A stretch of 64,000 bases of DNA from Paracoccaceae bacterium (lineage in GTDB: Bacteria > Pseudomonadota > Alphaproteobacteria > Rhodobacterales > Rhodobacteraceae), in contig JASBSV010000044.1 of assembly GCA_030148745.1 (NCBI GenBank), positions 62,001-126,000 on the forward strand, given 5' to 3'. Below, piece by piece: positions 8,687-26,253 of this stretch. A program made the position numbers and the translations under genes. The notes below the pieces were generated by a model. It had not been told where the DNA came from. It saw only the letters and a list, made by a program, of their open reading frames with translations, and did not search any database. Within the stretch, counting starts at the first letter, position 1. The number at the start of each line of letters is the position of its first letter.

Positions 8687-10819
8687 TCAGGCGCCGGCGT
8701 CCTGATCGTAATAGTCGTGATAGCGATAAGACCGGGGCCGGGTTTCGTCATGGTTCAGCACGGCGATGATCGGGGTGCCGGGGCGCACTGTCTGTAACAG
8801 GCGGGTATAGCTTTGGCGCAGCTCATTCTGGGCGGTGGTGCCGAAACGCACGCATAAGACCACCACATCGGCCAGCGGCGCGACATAGCGGGCATCGACG
8901 ATCGGGCCGATCGGCGGGGTGTCGATGATCGTCACATTCTTTGCCGCGCGCGCCTTGCCGATAAGATCGGTGAAACGGCCCGACTGCAAAAGCTGATCGG
9001 TAGGAAACGCGCCCCTTTCATTGCTCAAAATCACGCCCGCTTCGGATTTCGGATCGGCGGTGGCAAGCCGGGGCAGTTCGGCCTGCGCGTCCTTGCCGCG
9101 CAGATAGCCCAGCAGGCTCAATTTCGGGATCAGGTCGAGATATCGGTAAAGGCGCGGCTTGCGCAGATCGGCATCGATCAGCAGGGTCGACTGACCGGCC
9201 TGGGCATAGGTACGCGCCAGCGCCAGCGACAGGGTTGTCTTGCCCTCGGCCGGTGCGCTTGAGGTCACCATGATAACCTTGCCGCCCGGAGCGGTGCCAT
9301 GCGCGCCCTGATCTATTGTCGCGCGCAAATGGCGCAATGCTTCTGCATAGGCCGACAGGGGCGCCTCGGTGATCAGATCGGCCAGGCTGCTTTGGGCATC
9401 GCCTTGGGGCCGGGATGGCACGCTGGTGACCAGCCTTGTGGCGATGATATTGGACAGCTGACTGGTCGAGGTGACGCCGCCGATATGATATTCGTTGACA
9501 AAGGCCAGCCCGGTTCCCAGCACCAGCGCAAGGATCAGCGCCGATCCAAGGATCAGCTTGCGGTTGGGCGAGCTGGCCTTGCGCGGGGGGATCGCCGGCG
9601 AGACGATGCGCGCATCCGCCACCTGTACCAAGGCCTGCCGTTCGGTATCGCGCAGCCGTGTCAGCAGGGTGCCATATTGCCGTTGCGAGATGTCGGATTC
9701 CTGCTGAAGCTCATAAATATCGGCCAGAACCTCGGGCGCCAGATCGCCCTGAAAGGCCAGCTCGCGGATCCGGTTGCGGTAATCGCTGGCCTCTCGGTCA
9801 AGCTTGGCCGCCGTGTCGCGCAGCGCGCCGATGGCCATATCGGCGCGCCCGTTCAGCCCCTCTTCGAGCCGTGCCAGCCGGGCCCTGAGGCCGAGCTTAT
9901 CCGCTTCAGCCGTGGCGCCGGTGCCGGACAGGCGCTGTTCAAGGCGCATCCGCTGATTGGCCAGAACCGACATCGCATCGTCGCCCAGCGTGCGCGACAG
10001 CGAATTCCAGTCCTTTTGCATCAGCGCCTTTTCGGCTGCGCTTGCGGTGATTTTCGCGCTAAGCCGGGCGGCGTTGGTGCGCGAAAGAGCCTTGCTCAGA
10101 TCGGCGGCATCGGTCGGGGCGTTGTCGCGGGCCAGCCGATTAAGGTTATTGTCGATATAAGTGTTGAGCGCCTGTTCGGAGGCCGCCAGATTTTGCCGCG
10201 CATCATCGATCAGCCCGCGCAGGATATCGCCCGTTGCAAGCGCGGCGCTGACTTTGGACTGGACCTGAAGGTCGATATAGGTCTGGGCCAGCGTATTGGC
10301 AAAAAGCGCCGCATCGGACGGATCGCGCGAGGACACCGAGACGCCGATCAGATAGGTCGCGCCCTTGCGCCTGATCACCGCCGATTGCGAAAACCGCGCC
10401 AGTGTTTCATTGATCAGATCGCTCCCCGTCTCATCGGGTTTGATCGCAAAGCCCAGGGCGCGGGCCAGTTTCTCGGGCAGGCCGATCGTCGGCCCGAACT
10501 CGGGTCTGGACAAAAGATCGAGCCGGCCAATGGTCTCCAGCAGCACCTTGTCCGAGCTTAAGATCGCGGCCTGGCTTTCGATCCGGGCGTTTTCAACCCC
10601 GCTTGAGGTGGTGGCCTGTTCGGCCGGGCCAAGAAGGTTCTTGCGCGCCGGATCAACAAGGATCAGGGCGGTCGCGGTATAAAGCGGCGTTACCAGCAAA
10701 AGGTACCCCAAAGCCGCCCCGAGAACCAGGATCGCGGCCATCACAAACAGGCGGAACTGGCGCTTGATCAGGGCCAATGTGCCGCTTAGGTCCAGAAATT
10801 CGTCTGGTGAGGATTTCAT
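8687..10819 (-). CDS. Wzc/GumC-like polysaccharide co-polymerase with tyrosine autokinase
   Basis: This 710-residue inner-membrane protein controls exopolysaccharide polymerisation and export. It has a Wzz domain, a first membrane helix at about residues 25-46, a long coiled-coil periplasmic region with GNVR-type sequence, a second helix near residue 426 (LILGSALILALVLGTGLAFV), and a cytoplasmic BY-kinase. The kinase shows Walker A SSAPAEGKTTLS near residue 520, Walker A' LLIDADLRKPR and Walker B TIIDTPPIGPI. The C-terminus is a tyrosine cluster (SYRYHDYYDQD), the usual autophosphorylation tail. The ATG at 10819 was chosen; a GTG at 10837 is possible. It follows the ligase/polymerase gene closely. 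Confidence 0.92.
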   Translation of the reverse strand: MKSSPDEFLDLSGTLALIKRQFRLFVMAAILVLGAALGYLLLVTPLYTATALILVDPARKNLLGPAEQATTSSGVENARIESQAAILSSDKVLLETIGRLDLLSRPEFGPTIGLPEKLARALGFAIKPDETGSDLINETLARFSQSAVIRRKGATYLIGVSVSSRDPSDAALFANTLAQTYIDLQVQSKVSAALATGDILRGLIDDARQNLAASEQALNTYIDNNLNRLARDNAPTDAADLSKALSRTNAARLSAKITASAAEKALMQKDWNSLSRTLGDDAMSVLANQRMRLEQRLSGTGATAEADKLGLRARLARLEEGLNGRADMAIGALRDTAAKLDREASDYRNRIRELAFQGDLAPEVLADIYELQQESDISQRQYGTLLTRLRDTERQALVQVADARIVSPAIPPRKASSPNRKLILGSALILALVLGTGLAFVNEYHIGGVTSTSQLSNIIATRLVTSVPSRPQGDAQSSLADLITEAPLSAYAEALRHLRATIDQGAHGTAPGGKVIMVTSSAPAEGKTTLSLALARTYAQAGQSTLLIDADLRKPRLYRYLDLIPKLSLLGYLRGKDAQAELPRLATADPKSEAGVILSNERGAFPTDQLLQSGRFTDLIGKARAAKNVTIIDTPPIGPIVDARYVAPLADVVVLCVRFGTTAQNELRQSYTRLLQTVRPGTPIIAVLNHDETRPRSYRYHDYYDQDAGA

Positions 10820-10833
10820 CGGGGAGCCATCAT

Positions 10834-12261
10834 TCACGGGAAACGGGGCGCGCGGCCGGGCCGGCTGATCTGGCGGTAGGGGGTCAGGCCCATCGCCAGA
10901 AGCGCCAGAAACAAAAAGACATTGGCCTGAATTTCCAGCGGAAAATCGACCAGCGAATGCAGCGCGCCCAGACATAATGCGCCCATGGCGGCGCTGGCGC
11001 TGGCAAAGCCTGCATCCCGGCGCCGCAGAACGCCCGCCAGCCGCACAGCAATGAGCGCCAGAAAGACGATGGGCAGCGAGCCGGCGATCAGCCCAAGTTC
11101 GGCCCAATAGGTCAGATAGGTGGAATGGGCATGGGTCCATGTCACCGCGCTGGACAGGGGCGGTTTGTGGAAAAGCTCAAACGCGACGTCAAAACTGTCG
11201 AGGCCATATCCCGACCATGGGCGTTCAAGGATCATGCCGGTGATCTGGCGGTAAAGCTCACTGCGGGTTTCGCCGTGTTGCACAATAAAGATGCTGCGCT
11301 CGATCAGGACGCGGCCAAATCCGGCGATGACGGCGATTATCACCAGCAGGCCAAGCGCAATTCCGCGCGCCGAAACCATCGCGCGGCGGCGCGGAGGCAG
11401 GCCCACCATCAGGCCAAGAACGACGGCGGCGCCGGCAAGGGCCGCCAGCATTCCCATGCGCGAGCCGCTGGCCACAAGCGCGGCAAGGATGAACATCAGG
11501 CCCATGGCGAAAACCGCCCTTTCGATGGTTCGGGGGGCGGCAAACCCGCCGGCGGCGGTGCGCGCGTCGTCCCGGCGCAGGCGCGCAAACCCAAGCGACA
11601 GCCCCAGTATCAGCCCCATTCCCATGAAGGCCGCGAAAGAGTTGCGGTTGATGAATGTTCCGGTCGCCGATCCGGCATATGCCGTCTTGGGGCCCCAGAA
11701 AAAACTGTCGCCAAGCAGGTTGAGCGATATCAGCGCCCAGATGGCATGAAGCGAAATGCCCAGAAAAAGCGCCCCGGCGATGCGGCCCGCGCGGCTGGCG
11801 TTGGCCGATACCTCAAGCATCAGGATGAAAAATACGCCATAGGACAGAAGCCTTACGACCCCCAATGTCGTGGCCGTTGGCGCAAGGCTGAGAGTGTCGG
11901 GCGCAAAGCTACCCGCAAGCGGCAGGGCTGTTATCGCGGCGGGCAGGGCGGCGGCGACTGGCAGGGTCTGCAGGATGGCGGCCAGCGGTATTGAAAGCCC
12001 GACCAGCAAAAGCGGCGCCTGCTGAATGAAATGAAAGCGATAGCGCGGCGCCAGTTTCATCATGAGCAGGAAATATGCGCCAAAAAGCAGACCCAGAACC
12101 GCCGCCCATGCCAGCCAGAAAATCGGCCTGTTCGATCCTGCCGGAAGCGGGGCCAGAAGCACGACCGCCACCATCGCCGTCGCCATAAAATCATTCAGCC
12201 GTGCCGCCGGGCGGGCCGGGCGATGCGCCGGGGCGCCGGTAATGGCCATGGCAACGCTCAC
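10834..12261 (-). CDS. O-antigen ligase/polymerase family membrane protein (Wzy_C)
   Basis: This 475-residue protein has about eleven or twelve hydrophobic helices and a large periplasmic loop before the last helices. The loop has GYGLDSFDVAFELFHKPP and then THAHSTYLTYWAELGLIAG, the typical Wzy_C signature with a functional His. Such proteins polymerise repeat units or ligate chains at the periplasmic face of the inner membrane. The start is a GTG overlapping the preceding stop (GTGA); an ATG at 12249 is an alternative. A second polymerase-like protein is encoded at 16926, so the division of labour between them is unclear. Confidence 0.85.
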   Translation of the reverse strand: MSVAMAITGAPAHRPARPAARLNDFMATAMVAVVLLAPLPAGSNRPIFWLAWAAVLGLLFGAYFLLMMKLAPRYRFHFIQQAPLLLVGLSIPLAAILQTLPVAAALPAAITALPLAGSFAPDTLSLAPTATTLGVVRLLSYGVFFILMLEVSANASRAGRIAGALFLGISLHAIWALISLNLLGDSFFWGPKTAYAGSATGTFINRNSFAAFMGMGLILGLSLGFARLRRDDARTAAGGFAAPRTIERAVFAMGLMFILAALVASGSRMGMLAALAGAAVVLGLMVGLPPRRRAMVSARGIALGLLVIIAVIAGFGRVLIERSIFIVQHGETRSELYRQITGMILERPWSGYGLDSFDVAFELFHKPPLSSAVTWTHAHSTYLTYWAELGLIAGSLPIVFLALIAVRLAGVLRRRDAGFASASAAMGALCLGALHSLVDFPLEIQANVFLFLALLAMGLTPYRQISRPGRAPRFP

Positions 12262-13652: not shown

Positions 13653-14333
13653 TTGAAAGATATTGTCAGTGAGTATGGAGAGGTCCCGGTTGACCTGAGT
13701 TTCAAGCGCGATGTTTCGGGATTTTATCGCGCTTCGGGAAAACGCGTTTTCGACATTTTGATCACCCTTGCGCTTTTGCCCGTTCTGCTGCCGCTTGTCG
13801 GGCTGATCTGGGCCGTGGTGCGGGCCGGCGGCGGGCCGGGGTTTTACAGTCAGGAGCGGGTCGGTTTCGAAGGGCGGGTATTCAGGTGCTGGAAAGTCAG
13901 GACCATGGTGCCCGATGCCGACAGGGCGCTGGAGCGGCTGTGCCGGGCCGACCCCCGGCTGGCCCGCGAATGGCGCAAGAACCAGAAACTCAGAAACGAT
14001 CCGCGCGTCACCGCCTTTGGCCGGTTCCTCAGAATGACCAGTTTTGATGAGCTGCCGCAGTTCTGGAACGTGCTGCGCGGCGAGATGAGCCTGATCGGAC
14101 CGCGCCCCTTCATGCGCGAACAAGAGGCGCTTTATCGCGATGCGGGCGGGATTGCCTATTACCGGATGCGGCCGGCGATTACCGGGCCGTGGCAGGTTTC
14201 GGCGCGGGGGCAAAGCTCATTTATCGAACGTGTAAAATTTGACAATGATTATTGGAAAAACGTGTCCTTCGCGTCCGATCTGAAAATATTCTGGAAAACC
14301 TTTGGTGCGGTGCTGCGATGCGTCGGCGAATGA
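13653..14333 (+). CDS. Polyprenyl-phosphate sugar-1-phosphate transferase (initiating enzyme)
   Basis: This 226-residue bacterial sugar transferase of the WcaJ/ExoY type starts at a TTG with GGAG nine bases upstream. It has one N-terminal hydrophobic helix (FDILITLALLPVLLPLVGLI), the KVRTM catalytic region after FYSQERVGFEG, DPRVTAFGRFLR, and the diagnostic SFDELPQFWNVLRGEMSLIG followed by PRP. It should transfer the first sugar phosphate of the repeat unit to undecaprenyl phosphate on the cytoplasmic face of the membrane. It lacks the large N-terminal helical domain of full WbaP-type enzymes, as is normal for the short class. Confidence 0.92.
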   Translation: MKDIVSEYGEVPVDLSFKRDVSGFYRASGKRVFDILITLALLPVLLPLVGLIWAVVRAGGGPGFYSQERVGFEGRVFRCWKVRTMVPDADRALERLCRADPRLAREWRKNQKLRNDPRVTAFGRFLRMTSFDELPQFWNVLRGEMSLIGPRPFMREQEALYRDAGGIAYYRMRPAITGPWQVSARGQSSFIERVKFDNDYWKNVSFASDLKIFWKTFGAVLRCVGE

Positions 14334-14499
14334 GCGCGCCCGGGTAGCCGTTCTTACCGCATCCCGGGGGTTGCGCGAATTGCCGGGCTGCGCACGGGCG
14401 ATTCAGATACGGGCAGGACATTTCACCTATCACTTGGCGCGTCATCGGGGCGTTCGGCGATCTTCGGCGTTCCGGCATCTTGGGTGAAAAGGATTTATT

Positions 14500-14763
14500 A
14501 TGAACAACCCGTTTGATAATCGTGTGCCGTCTCTTAACGGGCCCTCGGCCGATCTTGAGCCGGTCACCCCCAGCGATACCACGGATCTGCCCGCGATCGC
14601 GCTTGGCCTTTATATCGAAGGCGCCGGCGCCGTGACTTTCGTCAGCGCGCGTGGCCAGACCCGCGTTGTGAATGTGTCGAGCTTTTCGATCCTTCCCACC
14701 GGGGCACAGCGTGTGATGTCGACGGGCACAACGGCGACCGGCATTCACGCGTTCACGGTTTGA
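14500..14763 (+). CDS. ghsA: GTA head-spike base protein-like (RCAP_Rcc01079/GhsA family)
   Basis: This 87-residue protein begins at an ATG with an AAAAGGA element upstream. Its pattern (NPFDNRVPSLNGPSADLEPV, TPSDTTDLP, LGLYIEGAGAVTFVSARGQ, ILPTGAQRVMSTGTTATGI) matches the spike base protein family named after Rhodobacter capsulatus rcc01079 (GhsA). In R. capsulatus GhsA and GhsB form head spikes that help the gene transfer agent bind the capsule of recipient cells. It is followed at once by a fibre-like gene, as in that organism. I see no other virion genes nearby. Confidence 0.78.
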   Translation: MNNPFDNRVPSLNGPSADLEPVTPSDTTDLPAIALGLYIEGAGAVTFVSARGQTRVVNVSSFSILPTGAQRVMSTGTTATGIHAFTV

Positions 14764-15680
14764 AAATGCTTGGGATCGGCTATTCGTTTGCGTCTTCAAC
14801 GCTAAAATCCGTGCGTGACGTCTTTTTGCAATTTGCCGGCGGCGCGATGCCGGCCGGGGTCAGCTTTACCCGCGCCTCACAGGCCAGTTTCTGGGATGCG
14901 GCGGGAAATCTGAGCATTGCCCCGCTCGATACGCCCCGCTTTGATCATGACCCGGTGACCCTTGGCGCGCGCGGCCTGCTGATCGAGGCATCGGCGAGCA
15001 ATCTGCTTTTGAACTCCACCGCCTCAGCGGCGAACTGGACCGCGGATTCATCGGTCGCCACCGATCTGACGCTGAATGCGCTTGGCTATTTTCCGGGGGT
15101 CGATGTTGCCTCGACCGGTGTGATGTGGTCGCGCCTGAAAGCTTCGGCCGATGTAACGGGCGGTGTTCCTTATGCGCTGACCCTGTTTTATCGCGCCGGA
15201 ACCTCGGGCAAGGCGCGGGTGGTCTTTAGCGGGCTTCCCGGCGGCGAAAGCCAGTATTCCGGCACGGTCGGCGCCCTGACCGTCTCGCGCAGCGATATCG
15301 GCCCGATCACCGCGGCCAGTGAGACGCTGCTGGCCGACGGGCTGACCTATATGGTGCGGCTTGTGTTTACGCCCTCATCTTCGGGCGCGCTGTCGGTGGG
15401 GCTTGGCCCGCATACGGCGGTTGCGGATGAGACGGTTGTTTTCCTTGGCGCGCAATTGTCGCAAGGCACGGATCTTACGTCCTTTATTCCAACGGCCGGG
15501 GCGGTGGCGAGCCGCGCCGCCGACACGCCGGGCCTGACCGGCCTGTCGGGTGCTCATGACATTCTGGCCAGCTATAGCGACGGAACGACGGAAAAATTCA
15601 CCGGTCAGATCCTTGGTGAAGGGTTCTGGCCGGCGCTTGGCAACCGGCACCTGTCATCGCTGACGCTGTCACCGCTCTGA
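14760..15680 (+). CDS. ghsB: Head-spike/tail-fibre-like protein (GhsB-like)
   Basis: This 306-residue protein has a TTG start that overlaps the ghsA stop as TTGA, with an ATG at 14766 as alternative. The N-terminal part FTRASQASFWDAAGNL, then DTPRFDHDPVTLGARGLLIE and SNLLLNS, is the module common in phage tail fibres and GTA spikes. The rest is rich in beta-prone Ser/Thr/Gly stretches (GLTYMVRLVFTPSSSGALSV, VVFLGAQLSQGTDLTSFIPT), consistent with a carbohydrate-binding jelly-roll. The likely role is receptor recognition on a GTA or phage particle. Location inside a polysaccharide locus fits a capsule-binding spike. Whether it is made with GTA genes elsewhere in the genome cannot be seen. Confidence 0.7.
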   Translation: MKMLGIGYSFASSTLKSVRDVFLQFAGGAMPAGVSFTRASQASFWDAAGNLSIAPLDTPRFDHDPVTLGARGLLIEASASNLLLNSTASAANWTADSSVATDLTLNALGYFPGVDVASTGVMWSRLKASADVTGGVPYALTLFYRAGTSGKARVVFSGLPGGESQYSGTVGALTVSRSDIGPITAASETLLADGLTYMVRLVFTPSSSGALSVGLGPHTAVADETVVFLGAQLSQGTDLTSFIPTAGAVASRAADTPGLTGLSGAHDILASYSDGTTEKFTGQILGEGFWPALGNRHLSSLTLSPL

Positions 15681-15715: not shown

Positions 15716-16807
15716 TTATTGCCCGCAGATCAGCCGCTCATACTCCGACAAAACCCGGTCCCAGAGAAAGCGCGCCTCATGGCGCGCCCGCGCCGATTTG
15801 CGCGCGGCCTCTACGCGGGCGGTATCGGCAAGAACGCCGCGCATCTGATCGGCGCAGCCGGCGCTATCGGCAAAATAGAACTGACCCTCGCCCGCGACCC
15901 AGCGGTTGAAACGGTTGTCATGCGCGATCACCGCATTGCCCGCGCCCAAAGCCTCGACAAGGCTGGGATTGGTGCCGCCGACCTGATGGCCATGCAGATA
16001 GGCGCGGCAATGAAACCGCAGGGCCGCAACCGCCGGGGGGTCGTAAATCGCGCCGGGAAACCTGACCGAAGGCCCCGCAGCGGCGCGCACCCGGCGGTGA
16101 TAGTCATTATCCGGATCCAGATTTCCCAAGATCACGCAGTCCGCCCCGCTTTGGGTCGTGCTAAAGGCGCGGACGAGTTCGAGAATGGAGTTTTCAGGCT
16201 CAATCCTTGCAATTGAGATCAGGTAATTGTCCGGCGTCAGGCCCAGATCCTGAACATATTTCGCATCCGCCTTGGTGACCTGCTCGGCGCCATAGGGGAT
16301 CATCACCGGCGTCTTGAAACAGCGCCTTGCGACGTGGCGCTGAATTTCGGGATGATCGGCGATGGCCTGACTGCTGATATTGGCGCCGATAACCTCATTT
16401 AGAAAGAACCACAGTTTCGCCGGCGCCGACCATTTGGCGCGTTTCCATTCAATTCCGTCCATATTCATCAAAACCCGGCGCCGGCGAATGCGCTGGCCGA
16501 TATTGAAAACGGCGGTGTTATAGCCAAGCACCAGATCGACACCGGGCTGGCCGGTGACATCGCGCGCGGCGGCCAGATCAAAATCCATCGTTGCGGCGGC
16601 GCCGGACAGGCGGGGGCGGAAATGGCGGCGCATGATCCCGTGCCATTCGTCCTGATGCCACTGCCGGACCGGGCCGGTTTCGGCCTGACAATAGACCAAG
16701 ACCTGGTGCCCGCGCCGGGTCAGATAGGGCGCCAGCCGTGCGGCGAAGGTTTCAAACCCGCCATGCTGGGCGGGGATACCGCGAATGCCGAGTATATTGA
16801 CCTGCAT
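15716..16807 (-). CDS. GT4-type glycosyltransferase (DUF1972, rhamnosyltransferase-like)
   Basis: This 363-residue GT-B glycosyltransferase starts at an ATG at 16807 with GGAAAAG directly upstream. The N-terminus QVNILGIRGIPAQHGGFETF is the hallmark of the DUF1972 group, which contains beta-1,4-rhamnosyltransferases. The C-terminal domain shows ISIARIEPENSILELVRAF and the donor-binding stretch GTNPSLVEALGAGNAVIAHD. With rmlABCD in the same locus, transfer of L-rhamnose onto the growing repeat unit is a sensible inference. It is a cytoplasmic, membrane-associated enzyme, transcribed convergently to the spike genes. Confidence 0.85.
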   Translation of the reverse strand: MQVNILGIRGIPAQHGGFETFAARLAPYLTRRGHQVLVYCQAETGPVRQWHQDEWHGIMRRHFRPRLSGAAATMDFDLAAARDVTGQPGVDLVLGYNTAVFNIGQRIRRRRVLMNMDGIEWKRAKWSAPAKLWFFLNEVIGANISSQAIADHPEIQRHVARRCFKTPVMIPYGAEQVTKADAKYVQDLGLTPDNYLISIARIEPENSILELVRAFSTTQSGADCVILGNLDPDNDYHRRVRAAAGPSVRFPGAIYDPPAVAALRFHCRAYLHGHQVGGTNPSLVEALGAGNAVIAHDNRFNRWVAGEGQFYFADSAGCADQMRGVLADTARVEAARKSARARHEARFLWDRVLSEYERLICGQ

Positions 16808-16925: not shown

Positions 16926-18371
16926 TTGCGTGCAAAAATCAGCCAGTGTTTTTTTGAGTGCCAGAGCGCCATGCAGGGCGCCCCCGGTCGCAGCGGCCCG
17001 GTGATGAGCGCTGGCGAAATCTATCACACCCATACCGCCAAACCCGGGCAGCAATTGCGCTATTGGGTGGTTCTGCCGCTTGCCCTGCATCTTCTGGTTC
17101 TGCTGGCCGGCTATCTGATCTGGGGCAGGGCGCCTTTTGGCGGCTTCAGTGACGAGGCCTTTGTTTTGGTCATGCTGGCGGCGGCCATTGTCAGAATTCT
17201 GCGCGAGGGGATATTGAAACGCGCGGCCATTGTGGCCGCAGCGGGGTCGGCGATATTCATTATCGGCTTCATTTCCGATCTGGCCAATCCCGAACTGACC
17301 GGCCTTCCGGTTTGGCGTGGGGCGATCATTGCCGCTTCGATCGATCTGAAAATATATATTCTGGTCTTTTGCTATATCGTTCTTTTCCATTCGGAAGATC
17401 GCGGCAGCGTTGAAAATGCCGTCGCCCTTATCTGCAAGGCGGTGATCATTTACAGCCTGATCAATCTTGTGCTGAGTTTTGCCGATACAATTCGCGGCAT
17501 CGGATTGCACAATCAGATATTGGAAACCCGCGCCGGGCTTTTGGTGCCGCAAGGGCTTTTCGATCATAAATTCAAAACCGCCTTTACCCATTTCATCGGC
17601 TTTGCCAGTGCCATGGCGCTGATCGGGGCCGGGCGCCACCGCTGGCTTTACGGCGCGCTTGCGGGGCTTTTCTTTCTGGGGCTTGTCCAGACCGCCAGTG
17701 TCAAAGAGCTGATCGGCGCGCTTGTTATCCTGCCGCTTTTCGTCGCCTTTCAGCCGGTGATCATCGCCCGGATCGGGTTTTTCCTGTTGGCGCCGGTGGT
17801 GATCTTGCTGCTTGGCACAAGCGACAACCGCATCTCGCACGCCATTGGCGAGAGGATGGATATGTTTGTCGCTCAGGACGCGCCGCAAACCGTTCGCGGA
17901 ACGCTTTATGCCCGCGCGCCCGAGGTTGCCGCCGATTATTTCCCGCTTGGTTCGGGCTGGGCGACATTCGGTTCCTCGGCCTCGCGCGATGTCTTTTACA
18001 GCCCGCTTTACTATATCTACGGCATCGCCTTTACTCATGGCGGCACCGAGAGTGACGGCAGTTTCCTTGTCGATACGTTCTGGCCCAAGATATTGGCCGA
18101 GCTGGGGTTTTTTGGCGCTGCGCTTTATGGTGCGCTTTGGGTTGCGGGTCTGGTGGCGATCCTGCGGCGCTGGCAAACTCATCACTCTTCTCTTGCATTC
18201 CGTTTTGCCGTCTTTGTCTTTGCGGGCGAGCTTGCAATCTCTCTGGCCACGCCGGTTTACAATTACGCCGATGGCGCCATTTTCGGGGCTCTGTCGCTGG
18301 CTTTGCTTCTGGGTGCTGGCACGCCGGTTTCGGAGCGGCGGGCGGTCACGCGCGCGCCGCTGGCGCCATAG
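16926..18371 (+). CDS. Wzy-like polysaccharide polymerase membrane protein
   Basis: This 481-residue protein has about eleven hydrophobic helices and a large hydrophilic loop before the final helices (from about residue 300, with GTLYARAPEVAADYFPLG and THGGTESDGSFLVDTFWPKI). That architecture is typical of Wzy polymerases, though the sequence is not of the canonical Wzy_C type. A TTG at 16926 with GGAG six to seven bases upstream is taken as start; ATG codons at 16971 and 17004 would shorten it by 15 or 26 residues. The last 109 bp overlap the 3' end of the opposing sulfotransferase gene. Confidence 0.75.
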   Translation: MRAKISQCFFECQSAMQGAPGRSGPVMSAGEIYHTHTAKPGQQLRYWVVLPLALHLLVLLAGYLIWGRAPFGGFSDEAFVLVMLAAAIVRILREGILKRAAIVAAAGSAIFIIGFISDLANPELTGLPVWRGAIIAASIDLKIYILVFCYIVLFHSEDRGSVENAVALICKAVIIYSLINLVLSFADTIRGIGLHNQILETRAGLLVPQGLFDHKFKTAFTHFIGFASAMALIGAGRHRWLYGALAGLFFLGLVQTASVKELIGALVILPLFVAFQPVIIARIGFFLLAPVVILLLGTSDNRISHAIGERMDMFVAQDAPQTVRGTLYARAPEVAADYFPLGSGWATFGSSASRDVFYSPLYYIYGIAFTHGGTESDGSFLVDTFWPKILAELGFFGAALYGALWVAGLVAILRRWQTHHSSLAFRFAVFVFAGELAISLATPVYNYADGAIFGALSLALLLGAGTPVSERRAVTRAPLAP

Positions 18372-19357
18372 CCTGTCTGCTCAAGCGTTTTGCGAAACGG
18401 CGCGACCAGTTCGGGCATCAGGGCAAGCGTTCCACGCGCCGGGGCCGGGCCGAGGGCCGCGCTTGCATAGGCGTCAAAGACCGGATCGGGGCGCAGGTCG
18501 CAATGCGCCCGAACCTTGCCTAGAACCCGGCGCGGGTCTGCGCAAAGCTGTTCGTATCCGATGCAAAGCACCGCGCGGGGATGATCGGCCTCAGCCTTTA
18601 GCGCCGCGCGCATGGCCAAAATCCACTCCACTGCGGCACGGTCACGGCGATCGCGCGCGCCCGCCAGATGCGCCGCAAGCGGGGCCAGATCCGGATCGGC
18701 GGGGACAAGCTGATCGACGATTGCGCGCCATTTGCGGTCATTGCGGCCCCACCAGTCGTGGCACTGGCCCGGGCGGCGCCGGCCATGCGCGCCGGACCAT
18801 TGCACGACCGAGACGCAGGTATCGACCCCGTCGCGCAGGATGGCGATGAACCGGGCCTGACCGAAAAGGCTCTGAACAAAGGGGATGCGGAATACCAGTT
18901 CGGGGTATTTGTCAACGATGCGTCGCCCCATGCCCCAAAACAGCGCCCAGCGGTAAACGCGGCGAAGCCTTGCGGCGATTTGGGGCGCGCGCGGCGACGG
19001 CCCAAGGGCGATGCGCGCCGGGGCGCTGGAATAGCTGCCGATGATATCCTCGCCGCCATGGGCATGATGCCAAAGCGCTTTTGGCTCGTTCAGGAAAACC
19101 GCATCGCGGTGCATGGCCAGTATCTTGCCAAGGATCGTGGTGCCGCTGCGCCCGGTGCCGATGATGAAAATCGGCGGGCCTGCGCGCCACGGCGCCGGCA
19201 CCAGCCGGGCCAGCCGGTACCCGGCAAAGACCAATGGGTTGATCCAGCGCCCGCGCGTGGTCAGCGGGCGCCCTTCGATCAGCGCATAACAGATCAGCCG
19301 CCCGGGGATTTTCCAAGGCCGGCGCAGGATCATCTGTCTGTCGATCTGGGCAACCAT
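18263..19357 (-). CDS. Sulfotransferase, probable polysaccharide sulfation
   Basis: This 364-residue protein has the 5'-phosphosulfate loop IFIIGTGRSGTTILGKILA near residue 69 and the 3'-phosphate-binding segment ARFIAILRDGVDTCVSVVQW near residue 180, the two PAPS-binding signatures of sulfotransferases. The start at 19357 overlaps the flippase stop (TGATG). In this locus it probably sulfates a sugar of the exopolysaccharide. The last 36 residues or so overlap the opposing polymerase gene and are Arg/Ser/Ala-rich, which suggests a recently extended C-terminus. Sulfation of another acceptor is possible. Confidence 0.82.
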   Translation of the reverse strand: MVAQIDRQMILRRPWKIPGRLICYALIEGRPLTTRGRWINPLVFAGYRLARLVPAPWRAGPPIFIIGTGRSGTTILGKILAMHRDAVFLNEPKALWHHAHGGEDIIGSYSSAPARIALGPSPRAPQIAARLRRVYRWALFWGMGRRIVDKYPELVFRIPFVQSLFGQARFIAILRDGVDTCVSVVQWSGAHGRRRPGQCHDWWGRNDRKWRAIVDQLVPADPDLAPLAAHLAGARDRRDRAAVEWILAMRAALKAEADHPRAVLCIGYEQLCADPRRVLGKVRAHCDLRPDPVFDAYASAALGPAPARGTLALMPELVAPFRKTLEQTGYGASGARVTARRSETGVPAPRSKASDRAPKMAPSA

Positions 19358-20739
19358 CACGAGACCTTCTGCAATTTGCGCGGCCCCTGCCGCCGCGGCC
19401 CGCGCGCCAGCGTCAAAGCGGCCGAGATCACATCGCTGGAAATGCCAAGCCGGCGCCGCGCCAGCGCCCATGAGGCGCCCTTGCGAAATACCACCGCGAT
19501 ACAGACGCCCCAGGCGATCCCGGCCGTGCCCCATCCCAGACCCAGCGCCAGCGCCGGCATCGCCAATGTGCCCAGACCGATCGACCAGAGGCTGATCTTC
19601 ATCGCCGCGCGATCCTCGGCGCACATGGTCAGGACAAGATCGCCGGGGCCGAAGGCGGCATTAAGGACCCCGGCCAGAACCAGAACCTGCAAAAGGGGGG
19701 CCGCGACCGGAAACTCGGGCCCGAAAAGGCGCAAAAGCGGCGCCGCCCAGAGCCACAGAAAAAGGGCCAGAACAAGCGTGGGCAAAAAAGCACCAAGGCT
19801 GGCGCGGGCGACAAGAGGGGCGAGATCGCCGCGCCCTTGGGCCGCAAAACGCTCGGACAATGCGGGCTGGATCGCGATGTTATAGCTGATCAGAAAGAAG
19901 GCCAGCGCCTGAGCGATGCGATTGGCCAGAAAATAACCGGCGGCCTCGCTTCCGCCAAAGAAAAAACCGGCCAGAGCGACATCGATATTGGCAAAATAGA
20001 TGGCCGAGACGGAAAACACCCAGAACGGCACGACCGAGGCGCGCCACTCTGCCGCCGCCTGCGCCGGGCAGGGGGCCTTGCCGGCCTGCGCCGCATCGAT
20101 GCGCCGCCCGATCAGCGCGCCCTGCACCAATGTCAGGGCCGCCAGCACGATGATCAGCGTTATGATCGCCGGATAAAGGCCCACCGGCCGCCCCCCGCCC
20201 CAAAACGCCGCCAGCGCAAGGATCGCCGCCCCGGCAATGGCCCGCCACAGCACCTCTTTGGGGATCAGCGCCAGTGCGATGGCGCGAAAGGCGCGCGCAA
20301 GGCTGGCCTGCATGTCGATGCGGCACAGCAAAACCACGAGGGCCAGCCCCAGTGCGGGCGCGCGCCAGTCGCCGATATAGCCCGCCGCCGCCGCCAGATA
20401 GCCAAGCCCCGCCCCCATGGCCCAGAGCGTAAGCGATCCGGCAAGGCTCAGCCGAAGGGCCCGGCGCCATGTCGCCGCCACGGCCCTGTGATCGCGGGCC
20501 GCGATCAGCGGCGGCAAATACCGCAGCATCGCGACCTGCTGGCCCATCGCCCCCAGAACCGAGAGCACGAAAGCGCCGGTCATAAGCGCGCCGACAAAGC
20601 CGAAATCAGCCAGAGCCATATTCTGTGACAGGACAAAGACAAAGCCATAAGAGGTCGCGGCGGCGGCAAGTTTGATCGCCAGCGTCAGCGCCGCATCCCG
20701 GCCCAGCGATCTTTGCGGTCTATGCGGTGTCGCGCTCAT
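19357..20739 (-). CDS. Wzx-like oligosaccharide flippase
   Basis: This 460-residue polysaccharide flippase of the MATE/MVF-type superfamily has about twelve to fourteen membrane helices. An N-terminal Arg-rich segment (HRPQRSLGRDAALTLAIKLA) precedes the first helix. The helix content and the region FGFVGALMTGAFVLSVLG fit Wzx proteins, which move undecaprenyl-linked repeat units across the inner membrane. The start ATG at 20739 overlaps the stop of the epimerase gene (ATGA). It sits between the epimerase and the sulfotransferase genes in one tightly packed operon. Confidence 0.85.
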   Translation of the reverse strand: MSATPHRPQRSLGRDAALTLAIKLAAAATSYGFVFVLSQNMALADFGFVGALMTGAFVLSVLGAMGQQVAMLRYLPPLIAARDHRAVAATWRRALRLSLAGSLTLWAMGAGLGYLAAAAGYIGDWRAPALGLALVVLLCRIDMQASLARAFRAIALALIPKEVLWRAIAGAAILALAAFWGGGRPVGLYPAIITLIIVLAALTLVQGALIGRRIDAAQAGKAPCPAQAAAEWRASVVPFWVFSVSAIYFANIDVALAGFFFGGSEAAGYFLANRIAQALAFFLISYNIAIQPALSERFAAQGRGDLAPLVARASLGAFLPTLVLALFLWLWAAPLLRLFGPEFPVAAPLLQVLVLAGVLNAAFGPGDLVLTMCAEDRAAMKISLWSIGLGTLAMPALALGLGWGTAGIAWGVCIAVVFRKGASWALARRRLGISSDVISAALTLARGPRRQGPRKLQKVS

Positions 20740-21653
20740 CCTGCGGTGCCCCTCATGGCATCGGTCGTCAGGGCGATCCCCTGATCCAGCGTCACCTGCG
20801 GGCACCAGCCGAAATCGCCCCGGGCGCGCTCGATCTCCATCACGATGGCGCGCGGATCAAAGGCGCGGGCGGGGCGGTGGTTGCGCGCGATGGGGGTGCC
20901 AAGCGCGGTTTCAATCGCCGCAAGCAGCCGGTTGAGCGATGTGCCCACCCCGGCGCCGCAATTGTAAACCCCGCGCCCCCCCGCTTCGAGCGCGCGCAGC
21001 ATCAGATCGGTCAGATCGCTGACATAGATGAAATCGCGCACGATGCTGCCATCGCCAAAAATATCGACGCGCTCTCCGGCCAGCGCCTTGTTGACAAAGG
21101 TTGTCACCGCGCCCAGCTGGCCCAGACTTCCCTGACCCGGCCCATAGGGGTTCGAGGGGCGGATCGTCAGCGTTTCGAACCCGTAAAGGGTTTCATACAT
21201 GGTGACATATTTCTCGACCGCCAGTTTGGTGATGCCATAGGCGCTGATCGGGTTCAGCGGGTGGGTTTCGGCAATCGGTGTGCGAAGGGGATGGCCATAG
21301 ACCGCCCCGCCCGAGGACATGAACATAAACCGCCGGTTGCCGCTGGCGCGCATCGCTTCTAGCAGACGGATGGTCGAGGATAGGTTGCGCTCGATATCGC
21401 CCACAGGGTCCGCCGTAGCCGTCGCCGGGATCGAGCTTGACGCCAGATGACAGATCAGATCGGCCGAAGATAAAAGCGCGGGCATTGCGGCCAGCGCATT
21501 GGTGCCGCCTTCGACAAAGTCAAAGGCGCGGCCATGGTCGATCTGTGGCTCGGCACTGTTGCCGACGACGGTGATCCGGTGACCCCGGTCCACCGCGCGC
21601 GGCACAAAATGGCTGCCGATGAACCCGTTACCGCCGGTGACGACGATGTGCAT
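20736..21653 (-). CDS. NAD-dependent epimerase/dehydratase (nucleotide-sugar modifying)
   Basis: This extended short-chain dehydrogenase has 305 residues from the ATG at 21653, which has AAAGGGGGGG upstream. It shows the NAD-binding motif VTGGNGFIGSHF at the N-terminus and the catalytic YGITKLAVEKY (YxxxK), with the Ser region FMSSGGAVYGHP. NPYGPGQG and DFIYVSDLTDLML are typical of UDP-glucose 4-epimerase or UDP-glucuronate epimerase relatives. The substrate cannot be fixed from sequence. It likely supplies an epimerised or dehydrated sugar nucleotide to the repeat unit. Its start overlaps the upstream glycosyltransferase by about 26 bp. Confidence 0.85.
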   Translation of the reverse strand: MHIVVTGGNGFIGSHFVPRAVDRGHRITVVGNSAEPQIDHGRAFDFVEGGTNALAAMPALLSSADLICHLASSSIPATATADPVGDIERNLSSTIRLLEAMRASGNRRFMFMSSGGAVYGHPLRTPIAETHPLNPISAYGITKLAVEKYVTMYETLYGFETLTIRPSNPYGPGQGSLGQLGAVTTFVNKALAGERVDIFGDGSIVRDFIYVSDLTDLMLRALEAGGRGVYNCGAGVGTSLNRLLAAIETALGTPIARNHRPARAFDPRAIVMEIERARGDFGWCPQVTLDQGIALTTDAMRGTAG

Positions 21654-22863
21654 CACCCCCCCTTTCATAGGCCGCCATCAGATCGGCCAGAAAAACGGTA
21701 TCGTTGAAGGTCTTGTCGGAATATTGCTTGGCCTTGCGGCCCATGCGCCGGGCCAGTTCGGGGTCCTGCGCAAGGGCGGTGATTTTCGCGGCCAGATCGG
21801 CGCGGTCATCGGGGTCAAAGACCAGCCCCCTTTCGCCATCGGCGATCAGTTCGGGGATACCGCCGCGCCGCGCGCCGATGACCGGGCGGGCAAGGGCAAA
21901 GGCCTGATTGATCACATAGGGAAAATTCTCGTGCCAGATCGAGGGGACGATGACAAACCGCGCCCGCGACAGGATCGGGATCAGATCATCGCCCCATTTC
22001 GGCCCGGTAAAGGTGACATTCGTCAGCCCCTCGCACGCGGCGCGGGCCCTGAGCGCCTCCAGATCCGGGCCATCGCCGACGATCTTGACCCTGAAACCGT
22101 CGATCCGGCCAGCCGCGTCGATAATCCGGTCGACGCCTTTTTCATCGATGATCCGCCCGAAATAGAGGCCATAAGCCTCATCCCCCTCATGCGGCGTGAA
22201 AGCAGCGCTGTCGAAAGGGTTGCGCATCTTGGACCAGCTGATCGCGCGGTCGGGCCAGAAATCCCGGGTCTGGCGGGCCATGAAATCGCTGGAAAAGGTG
22301 AAATGCGAAAACTGCGCGTAAACGCCCAGCCATTTGTGAACATAAGCCTCGATCATGCTGGCCGCCGACAGGGCGCGGCTTGATTTGCAGCATCCGTTGC
22401 GCGCAGCGTTATAAAACCTGCCGCCCTTGCAGTCGGTACAGATGCGCCCGTGGTGGAAAAGCTTGTAATTGGGGCATATATGTTTGTAATCGTTGAAGCT
22501 TCCTACCATCGGGATGCCCGCATCGGTCGCGGCGGTAACGATTGCCGGGCTGAGGTGCACATTGATGCTGAAGACATGCAAAAGGTCGGGCCGGAAGGTC
22601 GAGATGACCTCTGCCATCTTGTGTTTCTTGCGCCGGTCATAGATCGCCGCTGGCAGGCTGGCCGCCTTTTTGAGCAGTGAGGCATCGTCGTAATCGGGCG
22701 CGGCCATTCGGATCAGGTTGCCCGGATCGTCGCTGCGCGCCTCGCCGGTGGTGATCATCAGCGTTTCGTGACCGTTCTGGCGCAAGACCCTCTCGGTCTC
22801 GCGGAAAAAGACCTCGGCGCCGCCGGTCAGCTCATAGAACTTATGCGCAAGGATCACCCTCAT
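21628..22863 (-). CDS. GT4 family glycosyltransferase
   Basis: This 411-residue GT-B glycosyltransferase has the N-terminal acceptor domain beginning RVILAHKFYELTGGAEVFF and a C-terminal donor domain with YGLYFGRIIDEKGVDRIIDA, VKIVGDGPDLEALRA and EALGAG-like IGARRGGIPELIADGERG. A cysteine-rich insert (HHGRICTDCKGGRFYNAARN followed by GCCK) lies between about residues 130 and 160, as in a subset of bacterial GT4 enzymes. It should add a sugar to the lipid-linked repeat unit in the cytoplasm. Linkage specificity is unknown. Confidence 0.87.
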   Translation of the reverse strand: MRVILAHKFYELTGGAEVFFRETERVLRQNGHETLMITTGEARSDDPGNLIRMAAPDYDDASLLKKAASLPAAIYDRRKKHKMAEVISTFRPDLLHVFSINVHLSPAIVTAATDAGIPMVGSFNDYKHICPNYKLFHHGRICTDCKGGRFYNAARNGCCKSSRALSAASMIEAYVHKWLGVYAQFSHFTFSSDFMARQTRDFWPDRAISWSKMRNPFDSAAFTPHEGDEAYGLYFGRIIDEKGVDRIIDAAGRIDGFRVKIVGDGPDLEALRARAACEGLTNVTFTGPKWGDDLIPILSRARFVIVPSIWHENFPYVINQAFALARPVIGARRGGIPELIADGERGLVFDPDDRADLAAKITALAQDPELARRMGRKAKQYSDKTFNDTVFLADLMAAYERGGDAHRRHRR

Positions 22864-22905: not shown

Positions 22906-23781
22906 CTAGCCCTCGATCAGGGCGGTCAGATGCCGGCCATAACGGGTCTTGGTGAAGAGCGCGGCGCGGCGGGCGACATCCTCGCCGGTGATCCAGCCGG
23001 CCTGATAGGCGATCTCATCAGGGCTGCCGGTCAGCATCGCCTGACGCTGCTCAAGCGTGCGCACGAAATTGCCTGCATCCAGAAGGCTGCCATGGGTGCC
23101 GGTATCCAGCCATGCATAGCCGCGGCCCATCGTCTCTACGTTCAGGCTCCCCTCGCGCAGATAGATCTCAAGAAGCGCGGTAATCTCCACCTCGCCCCGG
23201 GCCGAGGGCCTGATCGTGCGGGCCCGCGCCGGGGCCTCATTGTCCAACAGATAAAGCCCGGTCACCGCATAGTTCGACTTGGGCTTGCTGGGCTTTTCCA
23301 CGATCTCGCAGGCCTTGCCGCAAGCATCAAAGCTGACCACGCCATAGCGTTCGGGATCGGCGACGTGATAGCCAAAAACAGTGCCGCCGCTGGTCTTTTC
23401 GTCGGCCCGGCGAAGCCGGTCGGGCAACCCGTGACCGAAAAAGATATTGTCGCCCAGAACCATCGCCGATGGCGCGCCGTGCAGAAAATCCTCGGCCAGA
23501 ATATAGGCCTGCGCCAGACCGTCGGGCGAGGGCTGCGCGATATAGCTCAGGTTCAGGCCCCACTGGCTTCCGTCGCCAAGGGTCTGGCGGAACTGCGGCT
23601 GATCCTGCGGCGTGGTGATCACCGCGATCTCGCGAATGCCCGCCAGCATCAGAACCGACAGCGGGTAATAGATCATCGGTTTGTCATAGACCGGCAACAG
23701 CTGTTTGGAGATGCCAAGCGTGATCGGATAAAGCCGCGATCCGGTGCCGCCGGCCAATATGATGCCCTTGCGCCGGGTCAT
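22906..23781 (-). CDS. rmlA: RmlA, glucose-1-phosphate thymidylyltransferase
   Basis: This 291-residue enzyme makes dTDP-glucose from glucose-1-phosphate and dTTP. It has the nucleotide-binding signature GIILAGGTGSRLYPIT at the N-terminus, SKQLLPVYDKPMIYYPLSVL, and the catalytic Asp/metal region VLGDNIFFGHGL and EKPSKPKSNYAVTGLY. Length and motifs are those of canonical RmlA/RfbA. It is the last gene of rmlC-rmlB-rmlD-rmlA and joins rmlD by a four-base ATGA overlap. Confidence 0.96.
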   Translation of the reverse strand: MTRRKGIILAGGTGSRLYPITLGISKQLLPVYDKPMIYYPLSVLMLAGIREIAVITTPQDQPQFRQTLGDGSQWGLNLSYIAQPSPDGLAQAYILAEDFLHGAPSAMVLGDNIFFGHGLPDRLRRADEKTSGGTVFGYHVADPERYGVVSFDACGKACEIVEKPSKPKSNYAVTGLYLLDNEAPARARTIRPSARGEVEITALLEIYLREGSLNVETMGRGYAWLDTGTHGSLLDAGNFVRTLEQRQAMLTGSPDEIAYQAGWITGEDVARRAALFTKTRYGRHLTALIEG

Positions 23782-24623
23782 TGGGGCGCTCCTGCGGTTG
23801 TGAACATCGCTCCAAGCGCCGCGCGCCAGTCAGGGCGTGACAGGCCAAAGGCCGAAAGCGTGTCGCAGTTCAGGCGCGAATTGGCGGGCCGCCGGGCCGG
23901 CGTGGGAAAGGCGTCGGTCATGATGTCCTGAACTTTCGTGTCCATACCGGCGGCGGTAAAAATTTCGCGCGCGAAATCGGCCCATGTCACATCCGGGGCG
24001 CCGGAAAAGTGATGGATGCCGCCGTCGCCGGGGGCGCGGCAAAGGTGATCGGCAATCGTCAGGCAGGTGGCGGCGATAGCGCCCGCAGGGGTCGGGCCGC
24101 CGTGCTGATCGGCCACCACGCGCAAGCTGCTCTGCTGGCGCCCAAGGCGCAGCATGGTGGTGGCAAAATTCCGCCCCCGCCCTGAAAAGACCCAGGACGT
24201 GCGCAGGATCACGCTTGTGCCGCCGGCTGCCTGCACTGCGCGCTCACCGGCAAGTTTGCTCTGGCCATAGAGGTTGACGGGATCGGGCCTGTCACCGGGC
24301 GCCCATGGCCGGGCACCGCCGCCGTCAAAGACATAATCGGTCGAGATATGCACAAAAGGGATCGCCCGTTCGGCGCAGGCCGTGGCCATCGCGCCCGGCG
24401 CCCGGGCGTTGATCAGATGCGCGCGCTCTGCATCCGCCTCGGCGCCATCGACATAGGTATAGGCCGCCGCATTGATCACCGCGCGCGGGGCAAGGCGATC
24501 AATGGCGCGGGCGCAGGCGGAAGGATCGCTCAGATCCGCTGCCCCGCGGTCCAGCGCGACGACATCATCCGCCCCCGCCAGCGCGCCGCCCACCTGTCCG
24601 GTTTTGCCAAAGACCAGAATCAT
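23778..24623 (-). CDS. rmlD: RmlD, dTDP-4-dehydrorhamnose reductase
   Basis: This 281-residue short-chain dehydrogenase starts at the ATG at 24623 and performs the last step of dTDP-L-rhamnose synthesis with NAD(P)H. It has the cofactor motif [12 protein letters not shown], the active-site region [14 protein letters not shown], and [12 protein letters not shown] (YxxxK). Its start overlaps rmlB by ATGA and its end overlaps rmlA the same way, so the four genes form a translationally coupled set. Confidence 0.94.
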
Positions 24624-25660
24624 GCGAAAACGCCCAGCCGCGCGCCGACCCCGTCGCGGTTTTGCAGCGCCTGCCACCAGCGCTCATTATCCAGATACCA
24701 CTGAACCGTCCGCTCGACCCCCGCGCTCAGGCTGACCGAGGGCTGCCAGCCCAGATCGCGGCGAATGCGCGCCGGATCAATGGCATAGCGGTGATCATGG
24801 CCGGGGCGGTCATCGACAAAGGTGATCTGATCGGCATAGGGCCGCGCGCCGGGGCGTTTGGCGTCCAGCGCGGCGCAGATCATCTGCGCAAGGGTCAGAT
24901 TGCTAAGCTCATTCTCGCCGCCGATGGCATATCGCGCGCCGGGCGCCGCGCGCTGCAGAACACATAGCAGGGCATCGGCGTGATCCTCGACATAAAGCCA
25001 GTCGCGCACGTTCAGGCCGCTGCCATAGATCGGGATCGGCTGGCCCTGAAGGGCGCGCAATATCACCACCGGCACCAGCTTTTCGGGAAAGTGATAGGGC
25101 CCGTAATTGTTCGAGCAATTGGTGATCAGCGTCGGCAGGCCAAAGGTTTCCCCCCATGCCTGCACCAGATGGTCCGAGGCCGCCTTGGAAGCCGAATAGG
25201 GGCTGTTGGGCGCATAGGGGGAGTTTTCGGTGAATTTCCCGGTCTCGCCGAGCGAGCCATATACCTCATCGGTTGAAACATGCAGAAAACGAAAATCCCC
25301 GGGCCGGCCCGCCCCGTTCCAAAAACTGCGCGCCGCCTCAAGCAGGGTATAGGTGCCGTTGACATTGGTGGTGATGAAATCGCCGGGGCTGTCGATAGAG
25401 CGGTCCACATGGCTTTCGGCGGCCAGATGCAGGATCGCGTCGGGCCGGTGGCGGGCCAGAATTCGCGCCATCGCCGCGCCGTCGCGGATATCGGCATGTT
25501 CAAAGCTATAGGCGGGGTTTTGCGCCACGCCGGTCAGGTTCTCGGGGCAGGCAGCATAGGTCAGCGCGTCAAGGTTGATCACCTGATGGCCGCGCGCAAT
25601 CGCCAGCCGCACCAGCGCCGATCCGATAAAGCCTGCGCCGCCCGTCACCAAAAGCTTCAT
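24620..25660 (-). CDS. rmlB: RmlB, dTDP-glucose 4,6-dehydratase
   Basis: This 346-residue extended SDR enzyme has [16 protein letters not shown] at the N-terminus, [13 protein letters not shown], the catalytic [13 protein letters not shown] with Asp-Glu, and [15 protein letters not shown] (YxxxK). [18 protein letters not shown] is strongly diagnostic of RmlB. It converts dTDP-glucose to dTDP-4-keto-6-deoxyglucose. It is coupled to rmlC by a four-base overlap. Confidence 0.96.
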
Positions 25661-26253
25661 TGCGCGCCCCCGATGGAAAACGGGCTGTCCAATGCCGCAA
25701 AGGCCGTCGCGGACAGGTCCTTGTCCGACAGGACCGGCCCTGCCGCCGCCTGCGGCCAGTCGATGCCGATGTCGGGGTCGTCAAAGCGCACTGCGCCTTC
25801 ATGCTCGGGCGCGTAATGTTCGGTGCATTTATAGATGATTTCGGTGTTCGGGCGAAGCGTCATGAAACCATGCAAAAAGCCCTCAGGGATCAGCATCTGC
25901 CGGCCGTTATCAAAGCTCAGCTCGGTGCCCGTCCAGCGCCCGTAAGTGGGCGAGCCTTTGCGGATATCGACCGCCACATCGAAAAGCGCCCCGCGCCCGC
26001 AGCGCACCAGTTTGGCCTGCGCTGCCGGGGGGCGCTGAAAATGCAGGCCCCGCACCGTGCCCGCCTGATGCGAGAGCGAGTGATTGTCCTGCACAAAGTT
26101 CAGATCAAGCCCCGCGCGCGCCATTCTGGCCGCGCTCCAGCTTTCGCTGAAAAAGCCGCGGGCATCGCCGTGACGCGCCGGGGTGATCACCATGACGCCG
26201 GCCAGTGGGGTGGCGCTCAGCTCCACCTTGCGCCGCCTTTGGCTGGTCGCCAC
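25657..26253 (-). CDS. rmlC: RmlC, dTDP-4-dehydrorhamnose 3,5-epimerase
   Basis: This 198-residue cupin epimerase shows [32 protein letters not shown] with the catalytic His, and [28 protein letters not shown] and [16 protein letters not shown] complete the RmlC signature. It is the first gene of the rml operon. The 187 bp upstream (26254-26440) are AT-rich and likely hold its promoter. I see a one-mismatch CtrA-like sequence there (TTAA-N7-TTTA at 26405-26419) but no clear -35/-10 pair. Confidence 0.95.

Follow-up and report, generated by a model that had tools for sequence, protein, structure and literature searches.

A head-spike gene pair of gene transfer agent type inside a polysaccharide locus, and recurrence of this linkage in relatives and on plasmids

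The window, the whole 64,000-nucleotide stretch of DNA analysed here, lies on contig C94 in a genome of 2.87 Mb (140 contigs, ~87% complete), and carries two adjacent, intact plus-strand open reading frames that match the two head-spike proteins of the Rhodobacter capsulatus gene transfer agent (RcGTA). The first (14500–14763, 87 residues), a ghsA-like head-spike base, scores 92.9 bits against NF048002, "spike base protein, RCAP_Rcc01079 family" (cut-off 28), in a profile search and 60.8 bits to phrog_12296, and matches the solved R. capsulatus base protein Rcc01079 (PDB 6tb9) with E = 2.4e-7. It is the single copy above cut-off in this genome, a second match falling below cut-off at E = 0.21. 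The second frame (14766–15680, 304 residues from ATG 14766), a ghsB-like head-spike fibre, scores 89.9 bits against NF048003 (cut-off 36, which three control genomes also exceed) and matches Rcc01080 of the same structure with E = 7e-10. These scores rule out a chance match of the pair, and they bear out the earlier note, which had named an 87-residue protein of the GhsA family followed by a fibre-like protein; by homology, the pair is a GhsA-type base and a GhsB-type fibre. The base stop and the fibre start are separated by a gap of 2 nt, and TTG 14760 is an alternative fibre start; ATG 14766 is the likely one, because it gives the plug-like N-terminus MLGIGYSF.

This stretch (14766–14789, plus strand) resembles the alternating aliphatic and small residues of the RcGTA plug, where, according to passages of PMC7296036, fibre residues 2–10 bind hydrophobic pockets of five base proteins, and by analogy it is expected to seat in a base-protein pentamer. 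An AlphaFold2 model of the window fibre has a mean pLDDT of 92, with residues 1–3 and 5–8 below 50, i.e., with the plug modelled without confidence; a model of the base, for which a jelly-roll fold would be expected, was built from five sequences and is poor (mean pLDDT 63.5). In the predicted fibre structure, residues 76–235 (14991–15470, plus strand) form a beta-sandwich like those of carbohydrate-binding modules (CBMs), which VIA-align places at Z 12.6 to a porphyran-binding CBM and Z about 11–12 to CBM16, CBM22 and CBM4, and residues 55–302 align with Pseudomonas phage tail fibre 9b45 at Z 20.0 (rmsd 4.2, 213 aligned). The fibre body has a confidently predicted, carbohydrate-recognition-like fold. 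Insecticidal Cry proteins match the same beta-sandwich with similar Z, so a CBM-like fold alone proves no ligand; unlike the CBMs themselves, the window fibre has no Pfam match, and the common fold leaves the bound sugar unspecified.

Judged from the homologies of its neighbours, the pair is placed inside a polysaccharide locus. It lies between a sugar-phosphate transferase (Bac_transf, 13653–14333, plus strand; PF02397, E = 9e-59) and a DUF1972/Cps2T-like glycosyltransferase (15716–16807, minus strand; PF09314 and PF00534, with NF046071 below cut-off) that is 61% and 64% identical to its counterparts in two syntenic loci, those of a Halocynthiibacter sp. (L104/L146) and of genome G289 (L108). 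The earlier placing of the pair between two sugar genes thus stands, but the name rhamnosyltransferase given there to the second is a guess, as its Cps2T match of 162.5 bits is far under the equivalog cut-off of 500. Further downstream are a Wzy/O-antigen-ligase-like membrane protein (16971–18371, plus strand; PF04932 at E = 0.0013, below cut-off) and a putative flippase-like (Wzx) membrane protein (19357–20739, minus strand), its function read by eye only, which is 24% and 36% identical to proteins of L104 and L108 and whose cluster representative has no Pfam match. These are followed, all on the minus strand, by an NAD-dependent epimerase/dehydratase-like protein (20736–21668; 48–50% identical in L104 and L108, and 29% to an annotated dTDP-glucose dehydratase of the Pontibrevibacter plasmid locus L138), a GT1-group glycosyltransferase (21628–22863; 52–60% identical in L104 and L108, and 34% over 216 residues to annotated glycosyltransferases of L141 and L143) and the dTDP-rhamnose genes rfbA, rfbD, rfbB and rfbC (22906–26226), assigned by likeness to L138, where their counterparts are 74, 54, 67 and 64% identical, respectively. 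On the other side of the pair lie a Wzc-like polysaccharide tyrosine autokinase (8687–10819, minus strand; 37–38% identical to annotated polysaccharide biosynthesis tyrosine autokinases) and an O-antigen-ligase-like protein (10834–12261, minus strand; 40% over 150 residues to an annotated ligase of L139). A minus-strand frame at 18263–19357 has a weak relative annotated as a sulfotransferase (30% over ~124 residues, E = 8e-6).

The sister species G394 (76% complete) gave no match to the spike base, to the DUF1972 glycosyltransferase or to the GTA marker TIGR02217, one of these searches having been run without a positive control. Both outer flanks of the window locus are present there: on the left, ~2.2 kb past the common flank consist of other genes without the Wzc-like kinase, and on the right the contig begins within the epimerase, such that a clean empty site is not readable.

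An RcGTA-type head-tail cluster, whose existence elsewhere in the genome the earlier note had put forward as a check, is identified by profile matches on a contig other than that of the spike pair. TIGR02217 has one match in the genome, on contig C16, and the surrounding 18 kb match a terminase (PF03237, PF17289), portal, prohead protease, HK97 capsid, connector, tail completion, tail tube, GTA-gp10, distal tail and hub proteins and an NlpC-type peptidase, as well as TIGR02218 and TIGR02219; all are open frames on one strand, followed by a 1302-residue frame. When ten proteins of this cluster were compared by tblastn with the window, none had a relative there, which agrees, for genes of GTA type, with the earlier reading that capsid, portal and tail genes are absent. 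The arrangement is that of R. capsulatus GhsA/GhsB (Rcc01079/Rcc01080) in several respects: both families are recognised by sequence, base precedes fibre on one strand, the fibre N-terminus is plug-like, and the pair lies away from the head-tail cluster, beside polysaccharide genes. It differs in that the window fibre has 304 rather than 325 residues, with low identity, and in its neighbours, which are a sugar transferase, a DUF1972 glycosyltransferase and a dTDP-rhamnose locus.

A phage origin of the pair, as the remnant of a prophage or in the service of an active phage instead of a GTA, is in our view very improbable. Both spike proteins do have phage relatives (stated in passages of PMC8601537): 23 Rhodobacter phage records carry the base, fibre-domain relatives are common in viral contigs, and the spike bases of Rhodobacter phages RcapNL, RcapMu and RcWhiteOak are 36–38% identical to the window base over 91–98%. 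Those bases sit in phage genomes, whereas the window pair has no GTA-type structural genes nearby, and 89 of the 90 spike loci, that of the window among them, lack a relative of the ten GTA structural proteins, a search that reaches GTA-related phages and that GTA-unrelated phages would escape. The exception, L077, has base and fibre beside GTA-type hub, peptidase and megatron genes (40–51% identical to the own GTA) in a genome (G362) with seven TIGR02217 matches, and is probably a prophage with a GTA-like baseplate. For the window, with both frames intact, a GTA cluster present and no GTA-type structural relative of the ten proteins beside the pair, we rejected the prophage reading.

We favour the view that the pair encodes head spikes of the strain's own RcGTA-type agent. 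By homology to RcGTA, pentamers of the base protein would sit on the capsid vertices, each plugged by one fibre, and the fibre body would make the first contact with the surface polysaccharide of recipients. The least certain steps are that the polymer bound would be the product of the surrounding genes, that linkage would hold the genes for making and for binding the receptor together through exchanges of the locus, and that delivery would thereby be biased to cells with the same coat. Own-GTA spikes, a polysaccharide-contacting body and a polymer from the surrounding locus make up an explanation that, as a whole, we consider rather probable.

The spike base and GTA marker were surveyed in a sample of 394 genomes drawn from the family. 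A base match was found in 142 (141 over cut-off) and TIGR02217, which also occurs in phages, in 318; 130 genomes have both, 12 the base alone, 188 the marker alone and 64 neither, the marker being commoner with the base (130/142) than without it (188/252; Fisher p = 3e-5). For the gene neighbourhoods, stretches of up to 20 kb, one per genome, were taken for 80 of the best 97 of at least 150 listed matches, and the window was added as the sole weaker match; the 17 omitted were mostly near a contig start or second copies. Twenty stretches ~200 kb upstream on the same contigs served as controls, and genes were called with our own script, which missed several fibres. At least one strict polysaccharide gene is present within five genes upstream or six downstream of the base in 53 of 81 loci, compared to 0 of 20 controls; 43 loci have two or more and 32 have three or more. 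Because the strict profiles were seeded from spike loci, and hence favour them, less biased Pfam tallies were also made, on 140 genes out of 290 from the immediate flanks, among them three from the window, and on 140 out of 331 from the controls. The flanks are led by Glycos_transf_1 (11), Glyco_transf_4 (10), Glyco_trans_1_2 (9), Glyco_trans_1_4 (8), Glycos_transf_2 (8) and Hexapep (8), where one protein may match several families, with lower counts for UDPG_MGDP_dh (4), Bac_transf (3) and DUF1972 (3). The control tally has no glycosyltransferase among its 25 top families of 225, the others matching at most one protein each.

In the remaining 28 loci, which have no strict polysaccharide gene nearby, few of the 25 families listed (of 156, for 141 genes) are of polysaccharide type: Acyl_transf_3 (3), Epimerase (2), RmlD (2) and Polysacc_synt_2 (2). 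About one-third of the loci therefore appear to lie elsewhere; two of the 28 (L054 and L102) have two or more looser polysaccharide-type genes each.

Base genes were also found on nine plasmids, of Tritonibacter, Pontibrevibacter (typed conjugative), Roseinatronobacter, Marinovum, two Rhodovulum, Sulfitobacter, Limimaricola and Acuticoccus, and in every one the base is found among, or next to, annotated polysaccharide or sugar genes. Roseobacter plasmids often bear biofilm or rhamnose loci (passages of PMC8224337), so replicon type and polysaccharide linkage are not independent in this sample. The Acuticoccus plasmid (L142), with dTDP-rhamnose genes, a glycosyl hydrolase and a sialidase as neighbours, belongs to a host in Hyphomicrobiales, outside Rhodobacterales.

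Linkage of spike and polysaccharide genes across the family is, we conclude, well supported. That R. capsulatus GTA spikes bind the capsule and that capsule genes adjoin the spike genes, both stated in substance in the earlier note, is in print (passages of PMC10218006), and because this adjacency is already published, the layout itself is not new. What the survey adds is scale, with recurrence in many relatives and on plasmids; a polysaccharide address in most loci surveyed is a stronger claim than in the literature covered, the abstracts and passages of open-licence PMC papers, among which we find none reporting a family-wide linkage.

Fibres were picked by position alone, as frames of at least 100 residues with an ATG within 12 nt of the base stop, and such a neighbour is present in 47 of 81 loci, the window included. 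A plug motif within the first 12 residues is found in 31 of these 47, compared to 92 of 1545 other genes (6%; p = 4e-25). A first regular expression had been fitted by eye to the N-termini; the one counted was modelled on the RcGTA plug, and is not fully blind, since the N-termini had already been seen. The one in L081 is unlikely to be a fibre; the bodies of the remaining 46 form linkage families of 15, 13, 5 and 2, with 11 singletons. Pfam, scanned with 44 fibres (two others run off contig ends), gives SASA and GDSL lipase matches in three each, perhaps the same proteins, and single matches to Laminin_G_3, CBM_5_12, He_PIG and Big_3_5, leaving at least 34 of the 44 without a match; NF048003 matches 9 of 55 downstream same-strand genes, several of these not fibres. 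Fibre bodies are unrelated between families, and a few resemble sugar esterases or lectins. On the Limimaricola variabilis plasmid (L145), the gene after the base (9261–10619) is annotated as a sialate O-acetylesterase, and may be a fibre whose body is a sugar esterase.

Esterase-like bodies, together with the 12 spike-bearing genomes in which the GTA marker was not found, might suggest that the pair works for the cell outside any particle, as a capsule-binding or capsule-modifying protein or as a decoy that shields a receptor. Base and plug, however, are parts of a device for mounting on a particle, and sit on the GTA head in R. capsulatus (passages of PMC7296036); we judge a cellular role slightly more remote even than a prophage origin.

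For 35 of the 81 bases this choice by position yields no fibre; 22 of those bases belong to polysaccharide-type loci. Eight of the 35 stretches encode a protein related to the fibre of another locus. Four of these relatives (L042 7504–9744, L046 10161–12386, L049 10144–12468 and L074 10364–12133) adjoin the base on the opposite strand, such that base and fibre genes converge; their proteins are 42–44% identical over 616–745 residues to the plug-bearing fibre of L105, and three have an early MIxLSSL stretch that is plug-like by eye. L096 has its fibre relative slightly further downstream, L100 and L111 elsewhere in the stretch, and L043, which has a GTG-started frame, a short match. For two of these large proteins of fibre type, no PDB relative was found. 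The other 27 bases, including those of L037, L039, L057, L069, L099 and L103, have no fibre relative in the fetched stretch, some of which stop at contig ends.

Whether fibres vary together with the polysaccharide genes was assessed over 46 loci, in comparisons made without a species tree. Fibre and neighbourhood similarity are weakly correlated (Spearman r = 0.10, Mantel p = 0.023), and with base similarity held constant the partial Mantel test gives r = 0.063 (p = 0.08). Individual cases point both ways. The Halocynthiibacter sp. and G289 have window-like fibres (48% and 40% identical) along with the window's DUF1972 glycosyltransferase, GT1 and rfbA/rfbD, and the Pontibrevibacter plasmid combines a window-like fibre (35%) with rfb genes 54–74% identical, so that fibre and rfb genes occur together in four genomes including the window's, once on a conjugative-typed plasmid. 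The sole informative pair within one genus, G012/G380 (L068/L088), differs in fibre and in neighbourhood. On the other hand, L092, L088, L089, L096 and L116 have window-like fibres beside unrelated or barely similar neighbours, and L067 and L054 carry the fibre family of L051 with almost no common neighbours. Relatives of the rfb genes occur in 3 of 10 loci with window-like fibres versus 2 of 79 others (p = 0.009, a post hoc comparison made without a species tree), and seven of the ten lie in loci without them. The earlier claim that receptor-making and receptor-binding genes are kept together so that specificity tracks the polysaccharide thus holds in its first part, as the linkage recurs family-wide and on plasmids, but tracking is not established by a between-genus covariation this weak; from these genes, spike specificity that tracks the strain's own polymer is plausible. 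Besides the weak covariation, the 28 of 81 loci lacking a strict polysaccharide gene and the 35 of 81 bases with no position-defined fibre speak against the kin recognition that the earlier note drew from such linkage.

The same data bear on the main rival, which holds that linkage arises from co-regulation or from high turnover of polysaccharide islands rather than from matching of specificity, the fibre binding common sugars. In R. capsulatus, spike genes are regulated together with those for the capsule (passages of PMC10218006), covariation is weak, similar fibres lie beside unrelated genes (L092 versus the window), and 15 of the 53 polysaccharide-type loci with a base have no fibre relative detected in the stretch. 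Against it stand the great diversity of bodies behind a plug-like start, with a few like sugar esterases or lectins, the joint change of fibre and neighbourhood in G012/G380, and the recurrence of window-like fibre with rfb genes in four genomes. We consider this account unlikely, though the strongest of the three alternatives to own-GTA spikes that contact the polymer of their own locus.

Phage capsule-recognising fibres and tailspikes have a conserved mounting end and a variable sugar-recognising body. The spike pair is like them in its conserved mount and variable body, and differs in that its locus may itself make the polymer that is recognised. A more general proposition is that, across Rhodobacteraceae, conserved base and plug carry exchangeable sugar-recognising or sugar-modifying bodies inside a polymer-making locus, often an island or plasmid, such that tag and recogniser are co-inherited in a greenbeard-like manner; if true, this would steer suicidal gene donation to same-coat cells. 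We advance it tentatively, as possible and rather doubtful; the fibre relatives in 8 of the 35 loci favour it and are too few to change our assessment.

Cells die when they make GTAs, and whether the trait can persist therefore depends on who takes up their DNA. According to a 2024 review, the host range of GTAs is yet to be tested systematically and, where there are data, infection is limited to very close relatives; the review also asks how GTA particles recognise hosts (passages of PMC11841831). Passages of other papers report that scattered GTA loci encode receptor-binding proteins, the scattering letting some genes evolve faster (PMC13420450), that capsule and GTA have regulators in common (PMC6209664), and that capsule is tied to GTA receipt (PMC9552610); biofilms have been proposed to restrict GTA benefits to close relatives (PMC10883770, in whose main text the word "spike" is absent). 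Should the genes for recogniser and receptor move as one, kin-directed delivery could be tested directly by exchanging either of them, for which natural fibre variants beside differing polysaccharide loci are ready test material.

An exploratory scan of many words finds the 7-mer GTTGCGC 5' of the base in 16 of 81 loci versus 38 of 1447 other genes, with the window copy at 14370. Neither it nor its reverse complement occurs in L004 626–13106, a region that takes in the sequence ahead of the own GTA terminase, and a common promoter signal of spike and GTA genes is thus not shown; a CtrA-like TTAA-N7-TTAA is present in 2 of 81 spike loci versus 11 of 1447 other genes. In L065, L068, L070, L077, L091 and L101, the fibres start 4 nt before the end of the base stop codon and have an N-terminus of another class, MK-x-x-x-D/E-L/F-S, in which hydrophobic residues alternate and which is possibly a different plug.
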